DNA of 64,000 nucleotides from Rufibacter radiotolerans (GTDB taxonomy: Bacteria > Bacteroidota > Bacteroidia > Cytophagales > Hymenobacteraceae): NCBI RefSeq assembly GCF_001078055.1, contig NZ_CP010777.1, positions 1,820,408 through 1,884,407 on the forward strand, in the 5' to 3' direction. The position numbers and the translations under genes were made by a program. The notes beneath the pieces were generated by a model. That model was not told the DNA's origin. It was given only the letters and a program-made list of their open reading frames with translations, and did no database searches. The number at the start of each line of letters is the position of its first letter. Position 1 is the stretch's first letter. Below are positions 708 through 13,898 of the stretch, in pieces.

Positions 708-1577
708 TTAATTGGTTGGCCCGTTGTCCACTTTAGATTCCAGTACTGCCTGTAGCTGCTTTGGCAGCACAGACAACAGGTCATAGCCGGTGTTGGCTTC
801 AATCAGATCAATGTTGGTTCTATACGTGCCCCAGTCTGACCGCACCGTGTTGTTGTTGGGGGTATTGATAGCGATGACGCGGGTGGCAGTGGTGATGCGT
901 TCCAGGTCTTTGTCGCCGTCTGGCAGTACCACCAGAACCTTCCAGATTTGGGCGGGCACCGTTACGCGGCCATTGGCGATGGTGGTGGCTGGACCGTTAC
1001 TGCCGGTGCCACCGGTGCCATAGCTGCCCATAATCACATAGACTTCCTGGCCTGCGTTAACCAATTGCCGAGTGTACTCCTCTAGGTTAGACCAAAGCTC
1101 GCGGTTATGGGTGGGAGCCTGCGGCAGAATATTGGTCATGAGAAAGGTAGCCGAGTTGGCCTCTATGGTATTGGTGCGGTCCCCCGAGGGGATGTTGTGG
1201 CCCCGGTCAAAGCCAGTGCCGGTGTAGACCGAAGTAGTCACTTTGTACCAATCTGAAGGCAAGGCTGCATCTGCCCTGAAATCATCTTGCCGCGGGGCGT
1301 CCCCTAACCAGTCTTTGCTCACGTGCCAACTTACCCAATTGGCATTACCGCGGTCGCGGCTATAGGAAAGGGCGTATTCTTTCTTCACCATCAGGTAATT
1401 GTTGGACCCAGAGACCGAAGCCACGGCCTGACTGGGGTTTCCTAGCACCAAATGTTGGCTTACCGGCAATTGGGAGGTGGCGGGCGTTACCTGGATTTCC
1501 TTACAGCTAAAGATAAAAAGCGCGAGGCTTACCAGGGAGGCGTATTTTTTGAGGGAGGAAAGACTTCTTTTCGTCAT
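708..1577 (-). CDS. DNA/RNA non-specific endonuclease, lipoprotein-type export signal
   Basis: Secreted sugar-non-specific nuclease of the NUC (Serratia nuclease) family, 289 residues. Residues 1-24 form a lipoprotein signal with Cys25 (FIFSC), so it is probably anchored in the envelope. The family signature DRGH is at 124-127 with His127 as the predicted general base, followed by DRT and the metal-binding Asn region (MTNILPQ, about 147-152, then N158). Length fits the family. Likely role is degradation of extracellular or periplasmic nucleic acid for nutrition. A TAnnTTTG-like promoter lies at 1718-1725. It is divergent from the motor/cytoskeleton cluster that starts at 1935, and nothing ties it to that cluster functionally. 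Confidence 0.9.
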   Translation of the reverse strand: MTKRSLSSLKKYASLVSLALFIFSCKEIQVTPATSQLPVSQHLVLGNPSQAVASVSGSNNYLMVKKEYALSYSRDRGNANWVSWHVSKDWLGDAPRQDDFRADAALPSDWYKVTTSVYTGTGFDRGHNIPSGDRTNTIEANSATFLMTNILPQAPTHNRELWSNLEEYTRQLVNAGQEVYVIMGSYGTGGTGSNGPATTIANGRVTVPAQIWKVLVVLPDGDKDLERITTATRVIAINTPNNNTVRSDWGTYRTNIDLIEANTGYDLLSVLPKQLQAVLESKVDNGPTN

Positions 1578-1934
1578 ACTATTCTGGGTTGGGGCCTTTG
1601 GGCAGGCAAAGTAAGGAAAGCGGTTTGGTATTCAAGGAAGCAGAGGGTAAAAGAATCAAAGCAAAGGCACCTGGGCCTTCCTGTTTTACGCCCGTTTTTC
1701 AGTAAACAGGTTAAAAACAAAAGTAATCGGCTTTAATTAATACCAAATTCCTGCGCCTGACGTTGTTTCTTCTGATTAGCCTTACCCATTAGATAGACGG
1801 GGCAGGGTCTGTTAACCAGGATGCGGGTGGTAACGAAGAAATTTTGCGGAATATTATCTAATTTCCTTTATAACCAAAGATAACCTTTTCCCTATATTCT
1901 TAGTAAGTTGCCAATAATACTCAACCCAAAGGGC
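1578..1934. other. intergenic region between divergent genes
   Basis: This 357-base gap separates the minus-strand nuclease from the plus-strand cluster. It holds a good minus-strand promoter (1718-1725) and a degenerate copy of the GCCTGTTTT palindrome family near 1679-1722. I find no clear TAnnTTTG element for the plus-strand cluster; the region just upstream of 1935 is AT-rich (TAACCTTTTC near 1881 is only a partial match). No ORF of note. Confidence 0.5.
1718..1747 (-). promoter_or_regulatory. Bacteroidota-type promoter for the nuclease
   Basis: On the minus strand TTTG (1747-1744) is followed after 18 bases by TACTTTTG (1725-1718), matching the Bacteroidota consensus TTTG-N19-TAnnTTTG. 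The predicted transcript start near 1711 leaves a leader of about 130 bases before the ATG at 1577. The consensus is established for the phylum; use here is inferred. Confidence 0.5.
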
Positions 1935-3314
1935 ATGGATAAAACCAGGTGTACGCGCAGCAGTAAGGTTCTTTTGCTTTCATTGGCATTAGTCTTTACC
2001 GGATGCTACAAAAAGGAAACAAAACTAGAAGAATCAACCCCCCAGGTAACACAGGACCAGGGTAAACCGGAGCCTAAACCCAACACACCCGCGGCGAAAG
2101 CCCCGGTAGAGTCGGCCCCCGCCGCCACGGCCTCTACGGTAGACGTAAACCTCTACCTGGAGATCTCCAACGGCATGAAAGGGTTTATTCCGCCGCCTGC
2201 CCCAGACAAACAACCCACGGCTTTCCAAACCCGCCTGAACCAACTGATCTCTGAGATCCAGGATGGCCGCTACGTGAAGTCTAAACGCTATTATCTGGCC
2301 AAAGAAAACAACCAGGGCAAGCCAGTGCTGGACAGTGTCTCTTATACTACCTTAAAAAACACCATCTCCAGTGGTATAAAAGCCGATGTGCGGGGCACTC
2401 CGCTCCCGGACATGCTGGAAGCGGCCTTAGCCAAGTCTTTGCAGCGGAACGCGGTCAGCATAATAATTTCTGATTTTATCCACGGACCAGACCCCCGGAA
2501 TCCAGGCCAGTTCATTTCCCTGGACTCAGACATCAGGAGCAGCCTGAAAGCCGCCGAGCAGAAAAACCAGGTAGTGGCGGTGTTGGGTGCTACTTCGCCT
2601 TTTTACGGTACCTACCACCCAGCCGTGAAAAAACCAGCCGTGAGCCGCGTGCTGCAAGGGGAGGAGATTCCTTACTACATCTGGATTATAGGCAACCAGC
2701 AAGAAGTGCAGGTGGTCATGAACAAGATTCTCCGGAACCTGCCGGCCCAGCAGGCCTACTTCGGGTTTCAGTACAAAACGGTGCCCTATTCAGCGGTGTT
2801 AAAGGCTGCGGCTTTCAAACCCATGGGATTGGTGTACTGTACCAGCCGCACAGCCCAGGCCTGTACCTCGGTTAATTTAAGGCCCGAGCCCAAAGAGCCC
2901 GTGCAGTTTACCATTGGCTTGGATTTAAGCCAGTTACCAGCTTCAATGAAAGATGCCGGCTACCTGAAACAGCATTTAAAGCTGACCACCACTGGCGCGA
3001 AGGCTTCTCTTGGCACTGTAATTGCGGCTAATGAAGAAACCAGGGCCGTTCCTGAGTTAAGCCAATTTACCCATTTCGTGAAAGTAAATGTGCCGGCGTT
3101 GACAGCCTCCATTGGCGCCCTGACCCTGGCGCTTCCGCAGGTAAGCCCGGCCTGGGTTGGCAACTGGTCCACTGAAAATGACAACAATCCTGCGGCGGCC
3201 CCTAAGAAAACTTACCAGTTCTCCAAAATCATTCAAGGGGTGCAGGCCCTCTACAGAGACCAAAACCAAAATGTGCTAAGTGTAACTATGAAATTTAACA
3301 AAGAAAACAACTAA
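1935..3314 (+). CDS. vWA-like lipoprotein, first gene of the motor/cytoskeleton cluster
   Basis: Predicted lipoprotein of 459 residues. The signal peptide ends in the lipobox VFTGC with Cys24, followed by a Lys/Glu/Pro-rich linker to about residue 68. The next segment looks like a von Willebrand A fold: strand VDVNLYLEISNGMKGF (69-84) where the MIDAS DxSxS is degenerate (E76-x-S78-x-G80), a Thr at 155 and a strand ending in Asp180 (SIIISDF). The remainder (about 240-459) looks beta-rich and unassigned. The frame opens at a TTG at 1908, but the ATG at 1935 sits directly before the signal peptide and is preferred. The next gene starts 2 bases after its stop. vWA homology is my reading of motif shape only. 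Confidence 0.6.
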   Translation: MDKTRCTRSSKVLLLSLALVFTGCYKKETKLEESTPQVTQDQGKPEPKPNTPAAKAPVESAPAATASTVDVNLYLEISNGMKGFIPPPAPDKQPTAFQTRLNQLISEIQDGRYVKSKRYYLAKENNQGKPVLDSVSYTTLKNTISSGIKADVRGTPLPDMLEAALAKSLQRNAVSIIISDFIHGPDPRNPGQFISLDSDIRSSLKAAEQKNQVVAVLGATSPFYGTYHPAVKKPAVSRVLQGEEIPYYIWIIGNQQEVQVVMNKILRNLPAQQAYFGFQYKTVPYSAVLKAAAFKPMGLVYCTSRTAQACTSVNLRPEPKEPVQFTIGLDLSQLPASMKDAGYLKQHLKLTTTGAKASLGTVIAANEETRAVPELSQFTHFVKVNVPALTASIGALTLALPQVSPAWVGNWSTENDNNPAAAPKKTYQFSKIIQGVQALYRDQNQNVLSVTMKFNKENN

Positions 3315-3316
3315 GA

Positions 3317-3730
3317 ATGATACAGAACTTTTTCTCAGGATTGTATGAATTGTTCCTGGGCCGTCCGCTGCCTGCCAATTACACCAATGACTACCGCGAG
3401 GTAGTGTTCCCTAACACCGGGCTTACCTTATTCCTGATCACGTTGGGCATGGTGCTCTTATACTATTATGTTTTTAATCGCCTGATGAGCACCGGCTTTT
3501 ACAAAACCCAGCACTGGACCATTATGCTGGTACTTAATGCCGTCATTGCTTTTTTCATCCCGATCATGCAGGTGAACAGCAATGGCATAGAAACCCATTC
3601 GTATACCTACACCTTCGCCTTTGTGAATGCGGTATTGAGCGTGGTTCTGTTTTTTCTTTTTTCCCTCCTTTTCAAAAAAGGGTCGGTTCAAGCCTGGACT
3701 ACCCCTATGAAATGGCCTCACACTAAATAA
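3317..3730 (+). CDS. small membrane protein, three predicted TM helices
   Basis: 137 residues with no family I recognise. Hydrophobic segments at about 32-52 (TGLTLFLITLGMVLLYYYVF), 68-86 and 100-118 suggest three membrane helices in the inner membrane, with a short basic tail. It lies between the lipoprotein (2 bases upstream) and the tubulin-like gene (3 bases downstream), so the three are almost certainly co-translated from one message. The position suggests it is a membrane partner or anchor of the cluster; no function can be read from the sequence itself. Confidence 0.7.
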   Translation: MIQNFFSGLYELFLGRPLPANYTNDYREVVFPNTGLTLFLITLGMVLLYYYVFNRLMSTGFYKTQHWTIMLVLNAVIAFFIPIMQVNSNGIETHSYTYTFAFVNAVLSVVLFFLFSLLFKKGSVQAWTTPMKWPHTK

Positions 3731-3733
3731 CCT

Positions 3734-5185
3734 ATGGCAAAATTATTTGTATTCGGGATTGGGGGCACAGGCTCCCGGGTAATCCGCTCACTGGTCATGC
3801 TCATGGCCGCCGGCGTGAAAATCAAGAACTGTGATAAGATTGTCCCTATCATCATTGACCCCGACACCCAGAACGGGGATATGAACCGCACCGTTGAATT
3901 GCTGAAGACCTATAAGCACCTGCACTCCAAGCTGGGCCGCCGGGACGAAGGCTTCTTCCACACCGACATCAGTACCCTTTCCAGCATTGCCAATGACGGT
4001 AATGCCAAGATAAGAGACAGCTTTGTGTATGATTTTGGTGGTATTAACAAACCGTTCAAAGATCACGTGGGCTATAACCAACTGGACATTGATTCCCAGG
4101 CGCTGGTTGATCTGCTCTTTACCTCAGAGAACCTCAACAACAGTCTGGATGTAGGCTTTAGAGGCAGCCCGAACGTGGGGTCCGTGGTGCTCAATGAAAT
4201 CATTGACTCCCCCGAGATGCGTTTCTTCGCCTCTAACTTCCAGGCCGGGGACCGGATCTTCTTTGTAAGCTCCATCTTTGGCGGAACCGGCGCGGCTGGC
4301 TTCCCGCTGCTGCTGAAGAATTTCAAGGACGTGCATTCCACGCTTCCCAATGCGGCCAGCCTGAACAACGCCCTCACAGGCGCCATGGTGGTATTACCTT
4401 ATTTCTCTTTGGAGCAACCTGCTGCTGGCGTACAAACCGACTTTATTGACTCCAACGCCTTTACCACCAAGGCCAAAGACGCGCTTTCTTATTATCAGAA
4501 CCACCTGAACGGTTTGAACGCCACTTATTACATGGGTGACACGCCAGACAAGCCGCTGGAAAACAACCCAGGCCGCGCCAGCCAGAAAAACGATGCCCAT
4601 TTGGTGGAGTTGTTGAGCGCCCTGGCAATTGTGGACTTCATGGATTACTCAGACAATGAGTTGCAAGGAAATTCCCTTTTCCATGAGTATGGCTTGCGCG
4701 AAGACGTGGACCATATCCAGTTCTCGCATTTAGATAATGAGACCCGGGACCGGATTGCCAAGCAGTTGATCAAATTCCATTACTTTGAGCGGTACTACTC
4801 ACAGCATTTACCGGAAGACGCCCAGGCTGCTTACTCCAAAGGGGTGGACCTGCAAGGCGCCATCCGGAACGAGCCTATCTTCAAAGACCTGAATAAATTC
4901 CTTTCAAACCCGGAGTTTGGTTACCAGTCCTGGTTAAAAGAATTAGGACGGCAGGAACGGACCTTTGCGGCCTTGAACCTGAATGAGACCGACTTTAACC
5001 GCATGGTTTCTGACAAGCAGGTAGAGACCGGGTTCCTGAACAAGGGAATCCATCAGGGTTCGTTTGTAAAAGAACTCAACAGAGCTTCTGAGTCTATCTC
5101 TGACCGTGACGCGTTTGTGGCGACCATTAAAGCTTTTGAAGCCGCTACTACTAACCTGGTAGATGATAAACTGAAATATTCATAA
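3734..5185 (+). CDS. tubulin/FtsZ-like protein
   Basis: 483-residue soluble protein with the marks of a tubulin-type GTPase. The N-terminus opens with a beta strand and glycine loop (FVFGIGGTGSR, residues 5-15) like the start of FtsZ/tubulin and of the tubulin-like Tubulin_2 family. The tubulin signature G-box is at 183-189 (GGTGAAG) after strand FFVSSIF. An acidic loop after strand 2 (IIIDPDTQNGD) fits the expected nucleotide pocket. The C-terminal third is helical. It lacks an obvious FtsZ C-terminal tail. It follows the small membrane protein by 3 bases and precedes the actin-like gene by 161 bases. GTP binding and polymerisation are predicted from motifs, not shown. Confidence 0.7.
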   Translation: MAKLFVFGIGGTGSRVIRSLVMLMAAGVKIKNCDKIVPIIIDPDTQNGDMNRTVELLKTYKHLHSKLGRRDEGFFHTDISTLSSIANDGNAKIRDSFVYDFGGINKPFKDHVGYNQLDIDSQALVDLLFTSENLNNSLDVGFRGSPNVGSVVLNEIIDSPEMRFFASNFQAGDRIFFVSSIFGGTGAAGFPLLLKNFKDVHSTLPNAASLNNALTGAMVVLPYFSLEQPAAGVQTDFIDSNAFTTKAKDALSYYQNHLNGLNATYYMGDTPDKPLENNPGRASQKNDAHLVELLSALAIVDFMDYSDNELQGNSLFHEYGLREDVDHIQFSHLDNETRDRIAKQLIKFHYFERYYSQHLPEDAQAAYSKGVDLQGAIRNEPIFKDLNKFLSNPEFGYQSWLKELGRQERTFAALNLNETDFNRMVSDKQVETGFLNKGIHQGSFVKELNRASESISDRDAFVATIKAFEAATTNLVDDKLKYS

Positions 5186-5346
5186 CGGGTTAACCTCCCT
5201 TAGAGGGAAGAGAGGTAGGACGCCTTTTGATTAATAAAGGCTTCCCACTTTCACCGCTTTGGAAGATCAAATTACAAGAAAAGCCCCAGGGAGCAGATTC
5301 TGTTTTCAGTCTCTTTTCTATAAAACGCCTTAAAAACACGTAAAAA
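5186..5346. other. intra-cluster gap
   Basis: 161 bases between the tubulin-like and actin-like genes. It contains a short hairpin (TCCCT/AGGGA near 5206) and a degenerate GTTTT...AAAAAC copy of the intergenic palindrome family near 5300-5336. I see no clear promoter or U-tract terminator, so read-through from the upstream genes is plausible. Confidence 0.35.
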
Positions 5347-8300
5347 ATGCCTAAAGTACTTCGTCTTCATAAAACCGGCTCAAACGTAGAGGGCTGGGCA
5401 CAGACCAGCCAGATTACCAGCACCGAGATCAAAGACATGGTGGATGGCGCCGGTGGTAGGGCCCAGAAGATAAACGCTTCTATTCCTACGCCGTTTGCCC
5501 GAATGCACCTTTTTGAAACCGCTTTTGATTTTGTAAAGCATGGCGTAGGCGGCAATAACAATACCATTTACCACCAGTTTGTGACCCATTTCTGGGATTT
5601 GTGGGAGCTCTTGTACCACCACCAAAGCTATGCCCAGGGCGGAAACAAGATTGTGGTGCGCCGCTGGAATAAGCAGCAGCAACTGGCCAACATGCAGGCT
5701 AACCCCGGGACCCGTCTTTTGGGCAAAACCCTGGAGTTGTTCATGAATGACAACCGGTTCAGGGGTGTAGATGAACTGTTCCTTTTCTACCTGGAAACAG
5801 CCAATGCCCAGGGGCAAACCAGAATGCAACTGTTAGGCGGCACCTCGCCGCTGACTTTCCTGTTTGTGTCGCCGCATGTGCAGCCTTTGGACATTAACCG
5901 CACGCACAACGCCGGGGTGTATTTTGACAACCACTACGTGCCGTTGCAAGACCGGGAGCAGGATTTCAAGGAATACGTGCACAAACTGTTCATGTCCAAC
6001 CCGGCTTTTGTGCAGGCCTTCCCGGCCGTGTACAATACCCTGGATGAGCATCTTCTAAAGAGCATTAACATGTCTGGAGTGGTGGGGCAAAATGCCATTG
6101 CCTCAGACTATATTCCGTTGGTGGACCAGCAGCAAAACCCCGTACACGTAGGGCACCTGAACTTCCTGGTAAAGAAAAACCAGACGGCTGTCAACAGCAG
6201 TGACCTGTTCCTTAGACCTACGAACAGCCGATTTGCCGGCGACCGTCCTATTGTGCTCAAGCCAGACCTACGGTTGGCCCCGCACGTGAAGTACGTAAAT
6301 AACCTGGCTTGGCCGGCCTCTACCCAGGTGGGTTATTCAGATGCCAAAACAATTCCGGCGCGCTCCCTGCCAGGGGTAGGGTTCAACTACCCGTACCTGA
6401 CCGTCAATGACCTGTTGCAGGAAACCATTGTGCAGGTTCCTTATGAGGTGAACACTGAACGCTTTTTCTCCGGCACGGTTCTTTTCCAGCCGGGCGTGAC
6501 CGATAAGACGTTCAATTACCTGCTGCCCATCACCAGCCTGTATTTTGAATATTTTACGCCTGAGGATCTGGCTAATCACCTTACCTTCCATATTGACGTG
6601 AACCACGTGCGGGTAACGCTAAACGTGCCCACCGAAAGCGGAACCGTGGTGTATGAGCGCAGCTACTATGACAACCCGTTAAACTCCAAAGACGCCAACG
6701 GACAGGTAATCCCAGAGAAAGGCCATATCCTGAAATCCAAAGTTGGTGTGGGCGTGTTCCCGTTCTATAAATTTGTAGACGCGCCCACTTACAATGACTT
6801 CTACAAAGTGATGCTGGTTGACGAGGACATTGATCCTTTATTGGTCAATAAAAACCACACCCTTTCTTTCTACGCTGGCGGAAACCAACTAGGCGAAGGC
6901 GGGGGTATTATCTCCGCTACCGGGACACGCCGGACCAAGAAGAGCAACAGCAGCGCGGGCAGTACCTATTATGAAATCAGAGGAACCCATTTTGACTTCG
7001 CTGAGTTCACCCACCAGGGCGTGGATGTGGTTGGTAAAGCCTTGATCGTTCCTAGATTCCGGGAGGTGCAGCAGGGTATCCACAACTTTACCTTCGCCAT
7101 TGATTTCGGGACGTCTAACACCCACATTGCGTTTACCTCTGGCGCCAACCAACCGCCCAAGGAGTTCTCCATCACGGCCAATGACCTGCAGCTAGTCATG
7201 CTGAATAAACCGTCAGATGATCCTGCACTCACAGATTACCAGCGGTTCCATAAGCGGGGCTTCGGGCGTCTATTTGCGGTAGAAACCTTGCTGAAGCGGG
7301 AATTCATTCCGTTGATCATTGGGTCTGGTGGGTCTCTGTACTCATTCCCAACCAGAACGGCTACCTGCGAGTCTATTGACTTTGAGAACCAGATCCCTAA
7401 CCTGTTCGGGAACATCAACATCGGGTTTTCCATCAACACCGAAGGCACGCACCAGGACCAGTACAAGCAAACGTACCACACCGACCTTAAGTGGAGCGAG
7501 ACGCTTACCAATACCGGCAAGCGCCGCATTGAGGCCTTCTTCACAGAGATCATGTACCTCATCAAAAACAAAGTGGTGCTTAACAACGGAAACGTGGCCA
7601 ATACCAAAGTGGTATGGTTTGCCCCTTTGAGCTTTGATGACTACAGCCGCAACATGTTCCAGAACGTGTGGGACACAGTGTACCAGAACGTCTTCAAAAA
7701 TGGCCGCAACACGGCCTGCATCACCGAATCGGTGGCGCCGTTCTACTTTTTATCCAGAACCGGTGCCGTGGTGCCTAGCCAGGATGAGAACCTGATTAAC
7801 GTAGACATTGGCGGTGGTACCACCGATATCTTGCTGTTCACCAACCGCAAGCCTTCGCACAGCTCGTCGTTCCGGTTTGCCGGTAATGACCTGTGGGGTG
7901 ATGGTTTCGCTACGGTAAAAACCAGTAAGGACAATGGCTTGCTGCGCTACGGCGTGGACCATGTGCTGCAGATTCCGCTTACCGATGAAGGCAAGGAATA
8001 CAAGAAGTTCCTGGAGACGTCTCTGGACAACCCTGACTTCAACTCCGCGGATATCACCAGCTTACTGTTCAGCTATGACAAAGAATTGCACTTCAGTTCG
8101 CAACTGTTGCAGGCGCGCCAACTGAGGCTGATGTTCTATCTGCACTTCGGAGCCATGATGTACCACCTGGCGCAACTGACCAAACAGTTAGACACCAAAG
8201 TGCCGCGTTACATTTGCTTCAGTGGTCAGGGTAGTTTGTACATCAAGCTGCTAAGTGCGGGCAACAACCTGTCTAACGTTGAGCGCTACGCCAAAACCAT

Positions 8301-8802
8301 CTTCCAGAAAGTGACAGGCCAGGAGGCACCAGGTAACTTCAAGCTGGTGCTGGTAGACAACCCGAAACAGGTGACAGCCAATGGGGGAGCCCTGGCGTTG
8401 GACGGAGCCAATCTTTCTGACCTTACTGATATTCCGATCATGCGCCCTACCGGGTCAGCCAACAGCGCAGATGCCTTGCTTCCGGTGAATAAAAGCCAGA
8501 TCTCCTCTACCATTCGGCAGGAAGTGCTGGAGAACGTGATGGACTGTTTGCAGTTGCTTTTAGATGATGCAGATGTGGCGCCGCTTATGCGCTCCATGGG
8601 TGTGGAGGTAGACCCGCACTGGGTACTGAACTTCATGCGCAACAACATCCAGGACAGCTACACCATGGTGCTGGAGGAAACCCTGCGTGGGCTTTCAGAC
8701 AGGGAGCTGCTTCCGGAGACCATGTTCTTCATGCCATTGAAGCAGTCTCTGTACCTGTTGTCTAAAGAGCTATACCACCAGCAAGTGGGGGCCATTGTCT
8801 AA
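5347..8802 (+). CDS. giant Hsp70/actin-like ATPase with large N-terminal region
   Basis: 1151-residue cytoplasmic protein. Residues 1 to about 575 match no domain I can name. From about 580 an actin/Hsp70-type ATPase follows: phosphate-1 loop DFGTSNT at 586-592, phosphate-2 loop DIGGGTTD at 820-827, and an adenosine-side SGQGS loop at 959-963 followed by ANGGALAL. About 100 helical residues close the protein. The order and spacing of the loops match the actin/Hsp70 superfamily, although inserts are long. There is no signal peptide or TM helix. Codon use resembles its neighbours. A protein with this opening (MPKVLRLHKTGSNVEGW) recalls conserved unnamed Bacteroidota proteins, from memory. It probably couples ATP binding to the membrane parts of the cluster; this is inference. 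Confidence 0.75.
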   Translation: MPKVLRLHKTGSNVEGWAQTSQITSTEIKDMVDGAGGRAQKINASIPTPFARMHLFETAFDFVKHGVGGNNNTIYHQFVTHFWDLWELLYHHQSYAQGGNKIVVRRWNKQQQLANMQANPGTRLLGKTLELFMNDNRFRGVDELFLFYLETANAQGQTRMQLLGGTSPLTFLFVSPHVQPLDINRTHNAGVYFDNHYVPLQDREQDFKEYVHKLFMSNPAFVQAFPAVYNTLDEHLLKSINMSGVVGQNAIASDYIPLVDQQQNPVHVGHLNFLVKKNQTAVNSSDLFLRPTNSRFAGDRPIVLKPDLRLAPHVKYVNNLAWPASTQVGYSDAKTIPARSLPGVGFNYPYLTVNDLLQETIVQVPYEVNTERFFSGTVLFQPGVTDKTFNYLLPITSLYFEYFTPEDLANHLTFHIDVNHVRVTLNVPTESGTVVYERSYYDNPLNSKDANGQVIPEKGHILKSKVGVGVFPFYKFVDAPTYNDFYKVMLVDEDIDPLLVNKNHTLSFYAGGNQLGEGGGIISATGTRRTKKSNSSAGSTYYEIRGTHFDFAEFTHQGVDVVGKALIVPRFREVQQGIHNFTFAIDFGTSNTHIAFTSGANQPPKEFSITANDLQLVMLNKPSDDPALTDYQRFHKRGFGRLFAVETLLKREFIPLIIGSGGSLYSFPTRTATCESIDFENQIPNLFGNINIGFSINTEGTHQDQYKQTYHTDLKWSETLTNTGKRRIEAFFTEIMYLIKNKVVLNNGNVANTKVVWFAPLSFDDYSRNMFQNVWDTVYQNVFKNGRNTACITESVAPFYFLSRTGAVVPSQDENLINVDIGGGTTDILLFTNRKPSHSSSFRFAGNDLWGDGFATVKTSKDNGLLRYGVDHVLQIPLTDEGKEYKKFLETSLDNPDFNSADITSLLFSYDKELHFSSQLLQARQLRLMFYLHFGAMMYHLAQLTKQLDTKVPRYICFSGQGSLYIKLLSAGNNLSNVERYAKTIFQKVTGQEAPGNFKLVLVDNPKQVTANGGALALDGANLSDLTDIPIMRPTGSANSADALLPVNKSQISSTIRQEVLENVMDCLQLLLDDADVAPLMRSMGVEVDPHWVLNFMRNNIQDSYTMVLEETLRGLSDRELLPETMFFMPLKQSLYLLSKELYHQQVGAIV

Positions 8803-8812
8803 TTAAATCCTG

Positions 8813-8851
8813 AGTCCGTGCTTCTGCTGTAAAACAGAGGCACGGACTTTT
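8813..8851 (+). terminator. hairpin with T-tract inside the cluster
   Basis: AGTCCGTGC and its complement GCACGGACT form a long stem (14 paired positions with one wobble) followed by TTTT, just after the stop of the actin-like gene. It has the form of an intrinsic terminator, so it may attenuate transcription into the downstream Gln/Pro-rich gene and the motor genes, setting subunit ratios. Confidence 0.6.
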
Positions 8852-8884
8852 ACTATGAAAACATTATAAAAGAAGAAGTACCTT

Positions 8885-9916
8885 ATGGTAACTATAGCAA
8901 TCATTTTAGGGGTAGTAGCGCTGGCCTTTGCCGCCTTTGCCCTTTATAGAATAGGCTCTCTCTCCAACCGGATAAGCCGCCTGAATGAAAAGATCAACAA
9001 TCTGGACCAAAAGCTGCAAGAAGCCAAAGGCCAGTTAGCCAGATCTGGCAGAAACCAGCCACAACAGGTTTCGGCTAAGGTTCCCCAGGACAAACCAACC
9101 CGCCAAAGCCAGACGGCACCGCAGGAGCCACGGCAAAAGCAACAAGGCCAGCAACCCGGGAGAGGTCAGCAGCCCCAGGAGGGAAGAGTTAATACCCCGC
9201 AGCAAGAGCCCCAGGGCCAGGCGCAACAAGGCCGTCAGCCACGTCAGCCGCAGCAGGGACAAGCGGCTCAACCCGCACAGCAACCTCGTCAACCGCAGCA
9301 ACAGCAACAACAGCAGCCTCAACAACCAAATCAACCAAGGCAGAATCAGCCGCGGCAAGGAGCGGTGAACGCGCCTGAACAAGCTGGACAACAAGCACCA
9401 CAACAGCAACAACAGAAGAAAAGAAGAGAAGGTCAACCCAGAAACCCTATGAACCCAACAGAAGGACAACCAGCCCAAAATCAACCCCGGCCAAACCAAT
9501 CGGCCTCCCTGGGTTCAGACCTGGTAGGCAGTGATCTCTTGTCTGAGCTGACCAGCCAGCAAGCCCCGGAACAAGTTCAACCGCAGGAGCCACAGAGCAA
9601 AACGGCTTTCGCCATTATCCCGGAAGACGGTGTAATTAAGCAGCACCAACTGCAGCAGCGCCCAGATTCTGACAGTTACCTGGAAATTGACAATCCCGCC
9701 GGAAGCAACAGCAACGCTACCGCTTACCGGTTTAACCTTTCGGGCAACCAGGCCTTCGTGATCTCACAAGGAATGGACCGTCTGGAGAATGCTTTTTCCT
9801 TTGAGAAACCCACCAACCGCCAGGTAAGCCAGATTGTGCAGCAGGGCGATGGGCTGTTGACCAAAGTAGGCAACGGCTGGAAAATAGAACGGAAGGCCCG
9901 GATTGATTTCCGCTAA
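8885..9916 (+). CDS. membrane-anchored Gln/Pro-rich protein with C-terminal globular domain
   Basis: 343 residues. Residues 2-22 form one hydrophobic helix (IAIILGVVALAFAAFAL), followed by a coiled-coil stretch (about 28-55), then about 170 residues of low-complexity Gln/Pro/Arg/Gly sequence with polyglutamine runs, and a compact C-terminal part (about 238-343) of mixed strands and helices that resembles no family I know. The layout is a tethered domain on a flexible arm, with the N-out/C-in orientation uncertain. It lies between the actin-like gene (82 bases) and the MotA-like gene (201 bases). The repeat-rich middle is likely to vary in length between strains. Function unknown. Confidence 0.7.
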   Translation: MVTIAIILGVVALAFAAFALYRIGSLSNRISRLNEKINNLDQKLQEAKGQLARSGRNQPQQVSAKVPQDKPTRQSQTAPQEPRQKQQGQQPGRGQQPQEGRVNTPQQEPQGQAQQGRQPRQPQQGQAAQPAQQPRQPQQQQQQQPQQPNQPRQNQPRQGAVNAPEQAGQQAPQQQQQKKRREGQPRNPMNPTEGQPAQNQPRPNQSASLGSDLVGSDLLSELTSQQAPEQVQPQEPQSKTAFAIIPEDGVIKQHQLQQRPDSDSYLEIDNPAGSNSNATAYRFNLSGNQAFVISQGMDRLENAFSFEKPTNRQVSQIVQQGDGLLTKVGNGWKIERKARIDFR

Positions 9917-9934
9917 TTTGCATTGATTTCAAGG

Positions 9935-9970
9935 AAAGCAGGTCGGGTGTAATGCCAGGCCTGCTTTTGT
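9935..9970 (+). terminator. hairpin after the Gln/Pro-rich gene
   Basis: AAAGCAGG (9935-9942) and CCTGCTTT (9960-9967) pair perfectly over 8 bases with a T-rich tail, about 18 bases after the stop codon. It fits a weak intrinsic terminator and would separate the motor gene pair into its own transcription unit or lower read-through to it. Confidence 0.45.
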
Positions 9971-10084
9971 TGCGCCTGACCGTTTTTGGGCCGTTTTTAG
10001 AAAAACAGGCTCAAAACAGAAATAAGGTCAATTACCTTTTAAAATGATAAATCATTGCCCCTGTTTTAATTAACCTAGGGCGCT

Positions 10085-10092
10085 TATCTTTA
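10085..10092 (+). promoter_or_regulatory. possible -7 element for the motor gene pair
   Basis: TATCTTTA matches seven of eight positions of TAnnTTTG and lies 17 bases after a TTTT that could serve as a -33 element. The motor gene starts at 10118. The match is imperfect and the call is tentative. Confidence 0.3.
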
Positions 10093-10117
10093 TCCTTCAT
10101 TTAACACACGCACTACC

Positions 10118-11848
10118 ATGTTAGGTATTTTCTTTTTAGAGGCTTTTCTGATTCTGATAATCCTGGGTTACCAGCTGTTTATCTACCGGGCCAATAAAAG
10201 AAAGATTGCAGCCGTGGAAGACCTCTTCCCGGAGGAGGGGCAACTGGCTATTCAGGAGCACATGCTGGAGACCGCCAAGTCTTCTGGCCGGAACCCCATG
10301 CCGCCTGAGCAAGTGTGGGCACACCTAATCAAAGCTCAGCCCTTTCGGGAATATTCCCCTACCAACCCCGTCTTGAAACGCATTCTAGCCGTGGGCGATG
10401 ACCAGTTGCAGATTGAGGTAAAAGGTGGCACCGTACCGCTTTACGCCATCAGCAAAGAGCGTTTTCAGCAGTTACTGGCCAAAGGCAACATCTTTCTGGA
10501 GGAGGGCGGTTCTGAAGCCTGGGACGAACCAAGGGTGCTGTCTGGGGAGATGATGACCATTGACCTGATTGAGGCCCGTAAACCGTCGCCCACGTTTCAG
10601 AAGATCCTGCACAATACCAATGAGTACCTGCGCCTGAACAAAGGAGCCGCCGCCGATTTTGAGATCCTCAAAGACGTGTCTGAGCGGTACGCCGATGCCC
10701 AGGACGATGAGGTGCAGTCCACCATTGCCACCCCGCTGTACGTGGGTTTGCTGGGTACCTTTTCGGGGGTGATCATTGGCTTGTCCAGCCTTATCTGGTC
10801 TGGGAGCCAGGCCGAGGGTTCTGCCTTTATCACCGATGAGAACATCCCGTCGTTCCTGTTTGGGGTCTTGATTGCCATGACCGGCAGTTTTCTGGGGCTA
10901 CTGCTGACCTTGATGGGCAACAACGCCCTCAAGAATGCCCGTAGCACCCGCGACCGGCTCAAGAACGAATATTACACCTTCCTGCAAACCCACCTGCTGC
11001 CTAAGCTGAACTCAGATATGGCCGCCAGCCTGGGCAACCTCAAATCGGTGCTGGATTCTTTTAACCGCGATTTCCTGGACAAGATCCTGGGCTTTCGGCC
11101 AATTGTAGAGACGCTCACCGAAAACATCAGCATTCAGAAAGACTTTATCCAGAAACTGGACCAGATTGGCTTCACGCAGATGGCCAACGCCAATCTGCAG
11201 GTCTTTGACAAGATCAAGGAAAGCGAGCGCCTGTTCATGAACTTCCTGCAGTACCAGGAGGCCTTGAATGAATCTGTGCGGCAAGGCGGGGAACTTACGC
11301 AAAACATCTCACAGGTGCTGGGTCGGCTTACGTCACTGCAGGAAGGCTTTGACAAGGTGCCAGGCTACCTGCAACAGCATGACGAGAACATTCAACGGCA
11401 AATCCATTTCTTTGACCGCCACGAACAGGACCTGGACAGCATCGCGCAGCGCACCGAGCAGTATTTTGACAAAGCCGCCCTTCGGCTTACCGATCTGATG
11501 GAAGCCCGCCTGCAGCACCAGGAACGCGATGCCCAGAATGCCTATGAGAAGTGGCAGGAACATTTCAGGCGGCTCAACGAGGATAACATTTACCAGCGCA
11601 TACTGGACTATATGCGGCCCTTTGAGAACCTGCAACAGCAGCAGGAACGGCTGGGCACCCAACAGCAAGTACTGGCTGGGCAGATCAACCAGACCAATGA
11701 CCGGCTGCTCCAAAAAATAGAGGAAGACGCGCAGATCCAACAGCAACTGCTCAAGCAACTGGCCACCCTGAACGCTAATCTGGAGAAGAGCATGGAGCCA
11801 GGACCTATCAAGGCGGCTATGGGTAAGATTTTCGGGACCAAACGGTAA
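10118..11848 (+). CDS. MotA/TolQ/ExbB-like proton-channel subunit with long coiled-coil tail (ZorA-like)
   Basis: 576-residue inner-membrane protein. One N-terminal helix (about 4-23) is followed by a cytoplasmic segment of about 180 residues, then two closely spaced helices at about 205-228 (TPLYVGLLGTFSGVIIGL) and 242-266 (IPSFLFGVLIAMTGSFLGLLL) with the Gly/Thr/Ala pattern of MotA/TolQ/ExbB stator subunits. Residues about 290-570 are heptad-like, Gln/Glu/Leu-rich coiled coil. A three-helix stator with a long cytoplasmic tail is the architecture of ZorA from Zorya defence systems. It is followed 13 bases later by its MotB-like partner. Expected to form a pentamer around a dimer of that partner and to conduct ions; inferred from the family. 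Confidence 0.75.
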   Translation: MLGIFFLEAFLILIILGYQLFIYRANKRKIAAVEDLFPEEGQLAIQEHMLETAKSSGRNPMPPEQVWAHLIKAQPFREYSPTNPVLKRILAVGDDQLQIEVKGGTVPLYAISKERFQQLLAKGNIFLEEGGSEAWDEPRVLSGEMMTIDLIEARKPSPTFQKILHNTNEYLRLNKGAAADFEILKDVSERYADAQDDEVQSTIATPLYVGLLGTFSGVIIGLSSLIWSGSQAEGSAFITDENIPSFLFGVLIAMTGSFLGLLLTLMGNNALKNARSTRDRLKNEYYTFLQTHLLPKLNSDMAASLGNLKSVLDSFNRDFLDKILGFRPIVETLTENISIQKDFIQKLDQIGFTQMANANLQVFDKIKESERLFMNFLQYQEALNESVRQGGELTQNISQVLGRLTSLQEGFDKVPGYLQQHDENIQRQIHFFDRHEQDLDSIAQRTEQYFDKAALRLTDLMEARLQHQERDAQNAYEKWQEHFRRLNEDNIYQRILDYMRPFENLQQQQERLGTQQQVLAGQINQTNDRLLQKIEEDAQIQQQLLKQLATLNANLEKSMEPGPIKAAMGKIFGTKR

Positions 11849-11861
11849 GCGCCCCAGTACC

Positions 11862-12524
11862 ATGAACAAAGAAAACAGAGATTTCTTCTGGCCCAGTTAT
11901 GTAGACCTCATGACCGTGCTCTTTTTGGTAATGCTGGTCCTTTTTATCCTGAGCTTTAAAATGTTCCGGGACAAGGCAGCCGAGAACGAGCGGAATATTG
12001 CCCAACTGCAGGTAGAAGTACAAGAGAAACGGAAGCTGGACGAGATTAAAGCCGCTCTTTCACGTTTGGAAGGTAAGTACTTTACTTACAATGAGAAGTA
12101 TAAGCGACATGAGTTATTGGTAGACGTGATTTTCCCCCAGAGTAGCGCCGAGATTCCGGCCCGGGCATTGCAGCCTTTGCGGCAGGCAGGCATTGAGCTG
12201 AGCAAGGTGGTGAACTCCATTAAAGACCAGGAAGTAAAGTATCTTATTGTAATAGATGGCCGGGCCGCCAGTTTCCCCAGAGGAGATTCCCGCAACATCA
12301 CCCAGCGGGAATACGCCTTAGAGCTTAGCTACAAAAGGGCCTTGGCCTTACTACAGTTCTGGCGCAATGCTGGTATCAAATTCCCAAAAAACCGCATTGA
12401 GTTGATTGCCTCCGGCAGCGGGTTTGAAGGCGCCGGCCGAACTGGAGATACCCGCGACCGGCGCTTCGTGATTCAAATTCTGCCAAAAGTGGGGGCCCTG
12501 GAAACCCGGCGGATTACCAGGTAG
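11862..12524 (+). CDS. MotB/OmpA-like stator partner (ZorB-like)
   Basis: 220 residues. A short cytoplasmic N-terminus leads into a single TM helix (about 13-32) that contains Asp15 in the motif SYVDLMTVLF, matching the ion-carrying Asp of MotB and ZorB. A coiled-coil linker (40-70) is followed by an OmpA-like peptidoglycan-binding domain (about 80-212) with IDGRA, LSYKRAL and a closing RRFVIQI strand, the usual NxxLSxxRA and RR-V landmarks. It would anchor the motor in the cell wall. The ATG is 13 bases after the MotA-like stop, so translation is probably coupled. A strong bidirectional terminator follows at 12578-12625. Confidence 0.8.
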   Translation: MNKENRDFFWPSYVDLMTVLFLVMLVLFILSFKMFRDKAAENERNIAQLQVEVQEKRKLDEIKAALSRLEGKYFTYNEKYKRHELLVDVIFPQSSAEIPARALQPLRQAGIELSKVVNSIKDQEVKYLIVIDGRAASFPRGDSRNITQREYALELSYKRALALLQFWRNAGIKFPKNRIELIASGSGFEGAGRTGDTRDRRFVIQILPKVGALETRRITR

Positions 12525-12577
12525 AATCCTGGTCTGTTTTTACAAAAAGTAATTTGTTCTTTGTTTCCTTAAATGAG

Positions 12578-12625
12578 AAAAGCGTTTCGGGCCTGTTTTC
12601 TTAAAAACAGGCCCGAAACGCTTTT
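12578..12625. terminator. long palindrome, bidirectional terminator, GCCTGTTTT family
   Basis: Nearly perfect inverted repeat: AAAAGCGTTTCGGGCCTGTT on the left arm, its complement on the right, loop of about 3-4 bases, T-tract on both sides. It separates the convergent motor gene (plus strand) and the barrel gene (minus strand). It shares the GCCTGTTTT/AAAACAGGC core seen at many other gene ends in the window. Confidence 0.7.
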
Positions 12626-12725
12626 TGGCTTCTTGCTAAACTTAACTTTGATTCCTTAAAGTGTTGAAGGGTGTTTTACCCAAATTACTGAATCTTAGTT
12701 TAGGGCTATTTTAGGGAAAACACCC

Positions 12726-13898
12726 TTAAAACGCCTCGGCGAAGGAGAAGTAAATGTACATGCCCTGGTTAGAGAAAGCCACGTCGCCGCGCACCACCAT
12801 GCCTTCATTATTCAGTTTGTAGCGTACGCCGCCACCTCCAGTTAAATGGAAACGGTTAAAGGAAAGGTCATTCGTGCCTGGGGCTACCTGGCCAGCACCG
12901 CCAAAAACGGCTCCGCCAAAGCGCCAAAAAAGAGGAAACCGGTAATCGGCCTGGGCCACCAGCGCGTTTTCATCTCTGAACCGGCCTTCCAGCAAGCCCC
13001 GCATCACAAACACCCCGCCAATAGGCGACAAGAACTGAAAAGGGGTATTACCGGTGGTAAAGGTGTAAAGTCCCTGCACCGCCAGCACGCCCGGGCCGAA
13101 GCCAGACATGTATTTGCGGAGGTCTATCTTGTAACGGGCGAAGTTATTATCGCTGCCCATGAATTTCTGAAAAAATACGGCCGACAATTGGTGGTAACCT
13201 CCCTTGGTAGGGGTGAACAAATTGTCGCGGCTATCATAGATCAGGACCGGTCCCAGCCCTGAAGCGATCGTTCCTTCGCTGCCCAGGATACCGTCACTGT
13301 CTAATTGCCCTTCTGGAGTCACCTTCGGGATGTCTTCTTTTTTAAATTCATAGCGCCCCCCCAGGTAAACTTTTTGCGTAATTTTCTGCTCATACTGGGC
13401 ATTGGCGTTAAAGGTGCGGCTGGTGTAATCTTCCTCGGCATCATCTGGCGTGTCATTGCCAATCCCGAAGAAAAAGTACGGGTAATCATTATACTCCAGC
13501 AACCCGGAGAAATGCCGGGCATTGTGCTTGCGCCATACATCGGCGGTAAAGGCCGTCAGGATCTGCTTTCTGGTGGTATAGATGAGCGTAGGTGAATAGG
13601 AGGTAGGCCTGTCGGTAGGCAAATGACCGGCCTGCTTGCGAACGTGAATTAGTTTCACCCCAAACCCGAACTGTGTCTCAGGTGTGTAATACGCCACCGG
13701 GAAAATATTCCATTTCTTGGTAGCGGGCGCCACCGAATCTGTCTGGGTTGGCATCTCTACCTTGAGAGAAGTAGTATCAACCGGTATGACGCGGGCCGTA
13801 TCTACGGGGATCACCCGCGAGGTATCCTGCGTGATTTGCGCAAAAGAGAATTGGCTGGTCGCCAGGAGGGCTATGCCTACAAGTAGTTTTGTTTTCAA
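12726..13898 (-). CDS. Omp85/BamA-type surface-antigen outer-membrane barrel
   Basis: 390 residues with a signal peptide (KLLVGIALLATSQFSFAQ). A short linker carries a repeated RVIPVDT motif, then from about residue 65 the sequence alternates strands and turns as in the Bac_surface_Ag (D15/BamA C-terminal) barrel: YTPETQFGFGVKL, YDSRDNLFTPTKGGYHQL and a terminal aromatic (FSFAEAF) that fits a BAM-recognised last strand. There are no POTRA domains, so this is a short barrel-only member of unknown substrate. The start is TTG: no in-frame ATG lies between it and the upstream region, and the signal peptide needs it. Confidence 0.8.
   Translation of the reverse strand: MKTKLLVGIALLATSQFSFAQITQDTSRVIPVDTARVIPVDTTSLKVEMPTQTDSVAPATKKWNIFPVAYYTPETQFGFGVKLIHVRKQAGHLPTDRPTSYSPTLIYTTRKQILTAFTADVWRKHNARHFSGLLEYNDYPYFFFGIGNDTPDDAEEDYTSRTFNANAQYEQKITQKVYLGGRYEFKKEDIPKVTPEGQLDSDGILGSEGTIASGLGPVLIYDSRDNLFTPTKGGYHQLSAVFFQKFMGSDNNFARYKIDLRKYMSGFGPGVLAVQGLYTFTTGNTPFQFLSPIGGVFVMRGLLEGRFRDENALVAQADYRFPLFWRFGGAVFGGAGQVAPGTNDLSFNRFHLTGGGGVRYKLNNEGMVVRGDVAFSNQGMYIYFSFAEAF

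Follow-up and report, generated by a model that had tools for sequence, protein, structure and literature searches.

MotAB, TolQR and ExbBD belong to one superfamily of ion-driven membrane pairs of an A and a B subunit. In the accessible parts of the open-access literature searched, ZorAB motors are known only from Zorya, an anti-phage system, and no link between Zorya and tubulins was found in the literature of one open-access library, including the accessible text of PMC12904381. Tubulin-like proteins have been described in other settings. The neighbourhoods of FtsZ-like-1 (Tubulin_2) genes (Makarova and Koonin 2010), which also encode vWA, membrane and OmpA-domain proteins, are interpreted in the accessible text of PMC2875224 as membrane-remodelling systems, and the GAP1-N2 GTPase-centric systems (Kaur et al. 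2020) include tubulin, HSP70 (actin superfamily) and vWA proteins near the membrane, sets proposed as conflict systems in the accessible part of PMC7159879. Here we analyzed a 64,000-nucleotide stretch (the window) of the 4.82-Mb genome of the Bacteroidota member Rufibacter radiotolerans (contig NZ_CP010777.1), in which the initial annotation had noted a ZorA/ZorB-like stator pair at 10118–12524. The feature proved to be larger, seven plus-strand genes (1908–12524) instead of two, with the pair at its end. We see an about even chance that the operon specifies a single machine spanning the envelope, with an ion-driven motor on cytoskeleton-like proteins, and not a Zorya system minus its effectors.

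The seven-gene operon and its inheritance

The operon encodes, in order, a vWA-like lipoprotein, a small transmembrane (TM) protein, an FtsZ/tubulin-fold protein, an actin-fold protein, a TM/linker protein and the stator subunits A and B, whose open reading frames (ORFs) of 576 and 220 amino acids (aa) are separated by 13 bp (Table 1). The topology initially ascribed to the pair was confirmed with ORFs, hydropathy and Pfam: A has three TM segments (residues 4–22, 209–227 and 247–265) and a long tail, and B has a single one (residues 14–32) that contains Asp15, together with an OmpA-like domain (Pfam OmpA, E = 2e-5; 25.3 bits, below the 27.2-bit cut-off). The A tail (residues 271–576) is helical, with a proline content of 6/306, and is conserved in sequence in the family alignment. 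Thr214 is present in 92 of 93 A sequences of the family and Ser257 in all 93.

Scanning species genomes with an alignment of the tubulin-like protein returned 513 relatives, and the best 80 were retained for locus counts. All seven genes stood in the same order in 74 of these 80 loci, an association that is not due to chance. The arrangement was exact in 69 of the 74, four had an extra TM/linker-like match upstream on the opposite strand, and one had a split tubulin frame. Five incomplete loci (L078, L106, L130, L131 and L132) were cut by a contig end or lay at most 260 bp from one; the sixth, L115, has no B gene. In 79 of the 80, the small TM gene adjoins the tubulin gene; the exception (L130) is cut by a contig end. 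Most of these loci come from Hymenobacteraceae (Hymenobacter, Pontibacter, Rufibacter and Adhaeribacter).

Averaged across 73 loci, pairwise identity was 60% for tubulin, 55% for actin, 50% for A, 56% for B, 40% for vWA and 29% for TM/linker, and the pairwise distances of the genes correlated with r of 0.90–0.99. For tubulin versus A, the distance matrices gave r = 0.957, against 0.083 for the best of 200 permutations. The A gene is near-core in the family, being present in 124 of 150 genomes and all six genera, usually as one copy, and it is gained and lost together with the tubulin gene: the latter was found in 40/40 A-positive genomes (40 of the 124 searched) and 0/20 A-negative genomes (20 of the 26 searched). 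When 296 phylum genomes were searched, nine matched the tubulin profile and five the A profile. Three of these five belong to the family and two matches fall at ZorB1-like loci, one with an adjacent ZorE; ZorB1-like genes at E < 1e-36 occurred in 12 of the 296. The A-profile matches at locus L054 appeared histidine-kinase-like by eye and were dropped.

Kinship of the stator pair and its altered pocket

The A tree was computed from the two most C-terminal TM helices of the A subunit (44 rows, 112 columns) and included 14 sequences of this family, 11 from Zorya, 14 of 25 collected ExbB/TolQ sequences and five MotA; the B tree had 29 rows and 218 columns. The Zorya references, all from one phylum, comprised 11 of 12 ZorB1-like pairs, with L190 left out because its ZorA frame looks broken. 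Seven of the 11 are flanked by ZorC and ZorD (three) or ZorE (four), giving ten proteins from seven loci. Among the five MotA/MotB references, E. coli was assigned by annotation and the other four from topology and neighbourhood.

In the best A tree, this family and Zorya were separated from ExbB/TolQ and MotA with support of 97/91; the family formed a clade of its own (99/97), and the branches were long. In the B tree, the family (100/100) and Zorya (98/99) likewise occupied separate clades. The pair thus appears nearest to ZorAB yet forms its own clade, so that the initial ZorA/ZorB-like label stands for kinship but does not extend to membership of the Zorya clade. Comparison with TolQ/ExbB and MotA, also proposed initially, gave a divided answer: the pair lies outside both in the best tree, whereas approximately unbiased (AU) tests rejected neither a grouping with ExbB/TolQ (p 0.092) nor one with MotA (p 0.295).

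Profile searches, suggested at the same time, were similarly two-sided. PADLOC matched B to ZorB1 over its full length (E = 4.3e-10), but A to ZorA1 only at E = 1.8. On B, the NCBIfam ZorB1 model scored 22.4 bits, below its cut-off of 400. Because the PADLOC ZorB1 model at E ≤ 1e-3 matches 285 of the 296 phylum genomes, the ZorB1 match alone is weak evidence, and we rejected it as proof of Zorya. In the reverse direction, the A profile reached Zorya ZorA and reported no ExbB/TolQ in the 296 genomes, though PF01618 (MotA_ExbB) is present in 13/13 genomes of the order. Searched against the PDB, the B profile found ZorB of Shewanella first (8vvn_B, E = 5.6e-10), followed by 8qyd_F (1.5e-5), S. 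kujiense ZorB (8vvi_A, 5e-4) and an outer-membrane-associated protein (0.03); nothing named MotB, TolR or ExbD appeared at E ≤ 0.1. We read 8qyd_F, a 'Membrane protein' in the PDB, as ZorB because the entries it belongs to, 8qyh and 8qyy, contain 'ZorAB system ZorA' as well, and presume its species to be E. coli. The origins of 8vvn and 8vvi are given in the accessible part of PMC11890865. The A profile retrieved only coiled-coil noise and ZorA 8qyh (E = 0.21) from the PDB sequences.

The AU tests leave some room for an ordinary TolQR/ExbBD-type energiser that converged on ZorAB topology, which we nevertheless regard as very unlikely. Window A has no match to PF01618 at E ≤ 1 in the Pfam scan, the best tree separates the two groups, and B carries an OmpA-like domain, said in the accessible text of PMC12505986 to be absent from generic Tol/Exb-type B subunits. 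Moreover, the genome has two further MotA_ExbB genes besides the operon A, and the A tail and operon partners differ from those of MotAB, TolQR and ExbBD. The A subunit of a diverged second operon copy in another genome (L230, below) did match PF01618, at E = 8.2e-4, below the cut-off. Less likely still is a GldLM-like motor for surface motility or secretion: the family belongs to the Bacteroidota and the machine is presumed to span the envelope, but the neighbours scanned with Pfam and NCBIfam included no gene for gliding or type 9 secretion, a scan in which GldL and GldM themselves were not compared.

The pair resembles that of Zorya types I and II in its three-TM A subunit with a long cytoplasmic tail, its ion-path Asp, the W-x-S-x-x-DLMT type of membrane helix in B and the OmpA-like domain. 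The peptidoglycan-binding G-H-T-D motif of that domain is, however, replaced in this family. Among 84 distinct B subunits (from 90 rows), the His position held Arg (46), Met (32), Ser (3), Gln (2) or Asn (1) and the Asp position Ala (78), Ser (5) or Glu (1), so that His and Asp were found in 0/84 each and the family consensus is G[RMSQN][ATS][ASE]. Zorya references retain His in 11/11 and Asp in 9/11, and the MotB references in 5/5. In contrast, all 84 have Gly133, Arg159 and the membrane Asp15, and 83 of them have Leu155. The accessible part of PMC11890865 reports that His186, Leu199, Arg203, Arg254 and Arg259 of ZorB I, and His141, Ser143, Arg215 and Arg230 of ZorB II, are required for peptidoglycan binding and defence. 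In our alignment, His186 maps to G-H-T-D, whose His and Asp were taken as equivalents of H186/D188, and Leu199 and Arg203 map to L-S-x-x-R. Since Asp15 is invariant and G-H-T-D lost, the ion path appears to be retained while the ligand pocket of B differs from that of Zorya ZorB.

As the initial annotation had observed, no ZorC, ZorD or ZorE is adjacent: PADLOC matched none among nine scanned proteins encoded from 708 to 13898. Searching the whole genome with a single model each for ZorC and ZorE gave nothing either, but the control of the ZorC or ZorE search matched nowhere in one case and in 1/14 in the other. Plain Zorya without effectors was rejected on the separate B clade and the loss of G-H-T-D. 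We also judge it unlikely that the operon is a divergent Zorya-type anti-phage system, in which the motor would sense the envelope perturbation of infection and the tubulin- and actin-like proteins would be the effector arm. ZorAB are the nearest relatives, DarT toxin-like and NADAR-antitoxin-like genes in Parabacteroides neighbour a gene of this B clade (below), and the proposal of conflict systems in PMC7159879, in its accessible part, would fit; yet the genes are near-core, usually single-copy and congruent in divergence, compared with ZorB1-like genes in 12/296 genomes, the family lacks residues corresponding to those needed for Zorya defence (PMC11890865, accessible part), its clade is separate, and the seven genes include no nuclease by Pfam or PADLOC. 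The initial proposal that the tubulin- and actin-like proteins are a possible alternative effector set was not supported, because the core occurs without ZorAB, G-H-T-D is lost, the distribution is near-core and not patchy, and the clade is distinct.

Cytoskeleton-like partners and the core without ZorAB

The upstream neighbours had been called tubulin- and actin-like, which Pfam named only below its cut-offs (Tubulin, E = 5.3e-5; FtsA, E = 4.1e-4), but which their folds bore out. Family members of the tubulin-like protein matched Pfam Tubulin in 11 of 12 cases and Tubulin_2 in 8 of 12, and those of the actin-like protein matched FtsA in 13 of 25. Foldseek on the predicted tubulin-like model (pLDDT 80.5) was weak (best E 4.4e-4, TM-scores 0.2–0.4), and a second structural comparison was therefore made, which aligned it with Mycobacterium tuberculosis FtsZ (Z 17.4, 219 residues, 4.1 Å). 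The tubulin profile found nothing in PDB sequences at E ≤ 0.1. Residues F182–G186 of the FGGTGA motif, which we take to be a T4-like nucleotide loop, are invariant in the family alignment and A187 is nearly so; the 483-aa protein ends in helices without a long C-terminal extension. The model of the actin-like protein, at residues 578–1046, matched ParM (Z 12.8), MreB (Z 11.5) and Hsp70 (11.3), and with Hsp70 so close the Z score does not separate actin from Hsp70. Both fold assignments are settled by these predicted structures, whereas Pfam, NCBIfam and PADLOC name the proteins weakly. The vWA-like protein has a lipobox Cys33, and in an alignment of 15 sequences E85-x-S87...M90 and S188-D189 resemble a metal ion-dependent adhesion site (MIDAS) whose first Asp is replaced by Glu; Pfam offered only DUF58 at E = 0.0086, below the cut-off.

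The operon fits the FtsZ-like-1 neighbourhoods better than Zorya, sharing with them a divergent tubulin-like protein, membrane and OmpA-domain proteins and, putatively, a vWA protein. It differs in its short tubulin without a long coiled-coil extension, its actin-fold partner, its ZorAB motor and the lack, by Pfam, of a P-loop GTPase or Ser/Thr kinase among the window's seven proteins. The words MotA, TolQ, ExbB and proton are absent from the main text of PMC2875224 (supplements excluded). With the GAP1-N2 systems the operon shares tubulin, actin-superfamily and putative vWA proteins near the membrane, but Pfam and NCBIfam matched no GTPase among the seven, a search that included no GAP1 model, and those systems are mainly from actinobacteria and firmicutes according to the accessible part of PMC7159879, a text from which the words MotA, stator and ExbB are absent.

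Relatives of the vWA, small TM, tubulin and actin genes without ZorAB were found on cyanobacterial plasmids, where the small TM gene was called by position and hydropathy and not by profile and, in L228, the vWA gene is on the opposite strand. They also occur in Prevotella F0039, together with a TM/linker gene and a gene for a TM protein that has paired Cys motifs. The same four genes lie beside Hsp70 (E 2.2e-77), without ZorAB, in L231 (4665–13178; genome G014). In two Bacteroidota loci, actin and TM/linker genes are followed by an SH3 protein and an LD-transpeptidase (L048) or by an aspartyl protease-like lipoprotein and a WG-repeat protein (L046). Tubulin and actin genes precede TerD and an OmpA-domain TM protein in L050 (4987–17107) and an OmpA-domain TM protein in L049 (2–8455), both with an extra gene of 467–482 aa after actin that has no Pfam match. 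L045 (5300–11566; genome G028) has actin, TM/linker and A without tubulin or B, and the A protein there has an additional TM segment, its fourth, at the C terminus. In a tubulin tree of 38 rows, ZorAB presence requires three changes, although a single ZorAB clade was not rejected (p 0.064). As the core genes occur without ZorAB, the stator is the variable part; from these sequences, ZorAB appears to be a swappable module on a vWA–tubulin–actin core, one that is a constant feature of a single family and its kin.

This exchangeability suits a membrane remodelling or vesicle system of the FtsZ-like-1 kind, in which ZorAB would supply energy or anchoring with no motor–filament coupling. In its favour are the LD-transpeptidase/SH3, OmpA/TerD, Hsp70, peptidase and TM proteins beside cores without ZorAB and the membership of Tubulin_2, which the accessible part of PMC9871819 equates with the Makarova–Koonin proteins. 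We consider it improbable all the same, given that the pair is never seen replaced among the best 80 of the 513 loci and in view of the conserved sequence of the A tail.

Further variants retain the pair. L230 (3–15281; genome G365) is a diverged second seven-gene copy in one genome, with GNTE at the G-H-T-D site of its B subunit, and downstream of it are genes for a trypsin-like lipoprotein, DUF805, a vWA-like protein (by eye), PP2C and a protein kinase. Two contigs catalogued in IMG/VR (L223, 3300031867_010011; L225, 3300021256_004135) carry six genes in order, without TM/linker, followed by a 500-aa gene with a DUF4357 end; their A and tubulin proteins are 25–31% identical to those of the window. 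In Parabacteroides distasonis (L027, 11403–15525 of NZ_OY725823.1), genes for DarT-like (Pfam E 4.5e-30), DUF6939/NADAR-antitoxin-like, ZorA-like and ZorB-like proteins stand in a row, with a site-specific integrase ~7 kb upstream. A single plasmid record was found, and the B protein belongs to the same clade as window B. We regard the locus as a candidate ZorAB–DarT system. A viral scan with its A protein gave no relative, and a phage collection held no match for its B protein or for the L223 actin protein.

Proposed machine and coordinates

In the machine that we favour, A and B would form a ZorAB-like ion motor of A5B2 type in the inner membrane, with the stoichiometry taken from relatives. 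The A tail would extend into the cytoplasm, where the tubulin-fold and actin-fold proteins would form nucleotide-dependent assemblies that it either works on or is gated by, probably by way of the TM/linker and small TM proteins. In the periplasm, the OmpA-like domain of B, with its altered pocket, and the vWA-like lipoprotein would make the outer contact. Complex and filament formation are both presumed, and coupling might run in either direction, such that the machine senses strain in the envelope or converts ion flow to work on it, in a role in envelope mechanics or remodelling. A narrower version, in which a rotary ion motor acts directly on these assemblies, with ZorA-type tails rotating or pulling filaments and a periplasmic link to the vWA lipoprotein, is tentative and rather doubtful; if true, Zorya would be one of several machines pairing ZorAB motors with different cytoplasmic partners.

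Several points weigh against the proposed machine. The 74/80 count is biased to close kin, because the loci are the 80 most similar ones, and congruent distances and co-inheritance within one family can also be expected from vertical descent of neighbours. The core lacks ZorAB in several lineages, hence some versions can dispense with the motor. Loss of G-H-T-D leaves the periplasmic anchor of the motor unexplained. The match to FtsZ covers only about residues 1–350 of the predicted tubulin-like model, the vWA assignment comes from a motif, and the association of A and B with the other operon proteins is deduced from sequence.

If the proposed machine is real, ZorAB-like motors would have a role outside defence, long-unexplained vWA/FtsZ-like operons would gain a testable energy source in one lineage, and a deletable operon in culturable environmental bacteria would be available to probe an ion motor acting on cytoskeletal proteins.

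Table 1 Features of the seven-gene operon in the window
Feature	Position	Strand	Basis or remark
vWA-like lipoprotein gene	1908..3314	+	468 aa ORF, TTG start
Small membrane protein gene	3317..3730	+	137 aa, three TM segments (hydropathy)
Tubulin/FtsZ-fold gene (FtsZ-like, Tubulin_2 type)	3734..5185	+	483 aa; Pfam and predicted fold
FGGTGA nucleotide-loop motif of tubulin-like protein	4277..4294	+	Family alignment
Actin-fold gene	5347..8802	+	1151 aa; Pfam FtsA and predicted fold
Actin/Hsp70 ATPase-type domain	7078-8484	+	About residues 578-1046 of actin-fold protein; no domain assigned to residues 1-570
TM/linker gene	8885..9916	+	One TM, Pro/Gln-rich linker, conserved C-terminal domain of ~100 aa
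ZorA-like A subunit	10118..11848	+	Hydropathy, alignment, tree
A subunit, TM1	10127-10183	+	Hydropathy
A subunit, TM2	10742-10798	+	Hydropathy
A subunit, TM3	10856-10912	+	Hydropathy
A subunit, cytoplasmic tail	10913-11845	+	Hydropathy
ZorB-like B subunit, OmpA-like domain	11862..12524	+	Pfam, PADLOC, PDB profile search, tree
B subunit, single TM	11901-11957	+	Hydropathy
Asp15 codon, ion-path aspartate of B	11904..11906	+	Asp in 84/84 distinct family sequences
G-R-A-A at site of peptidoglycan-binding G-H-T-D	12258..12269	+	B alignment
L-S-Y-K-R, kept part of OmpA-like pocket (R159)	12324..12338	+	Arg in 84/84

The operon is flanked on one side by a DNA/RNA non-specific endonuclease gene (708–1577, minus strand; Pfam E 5.9e-48) and on the other by a gene for an Omp85-like outer-membrane protein (12726–13898, minus strand).

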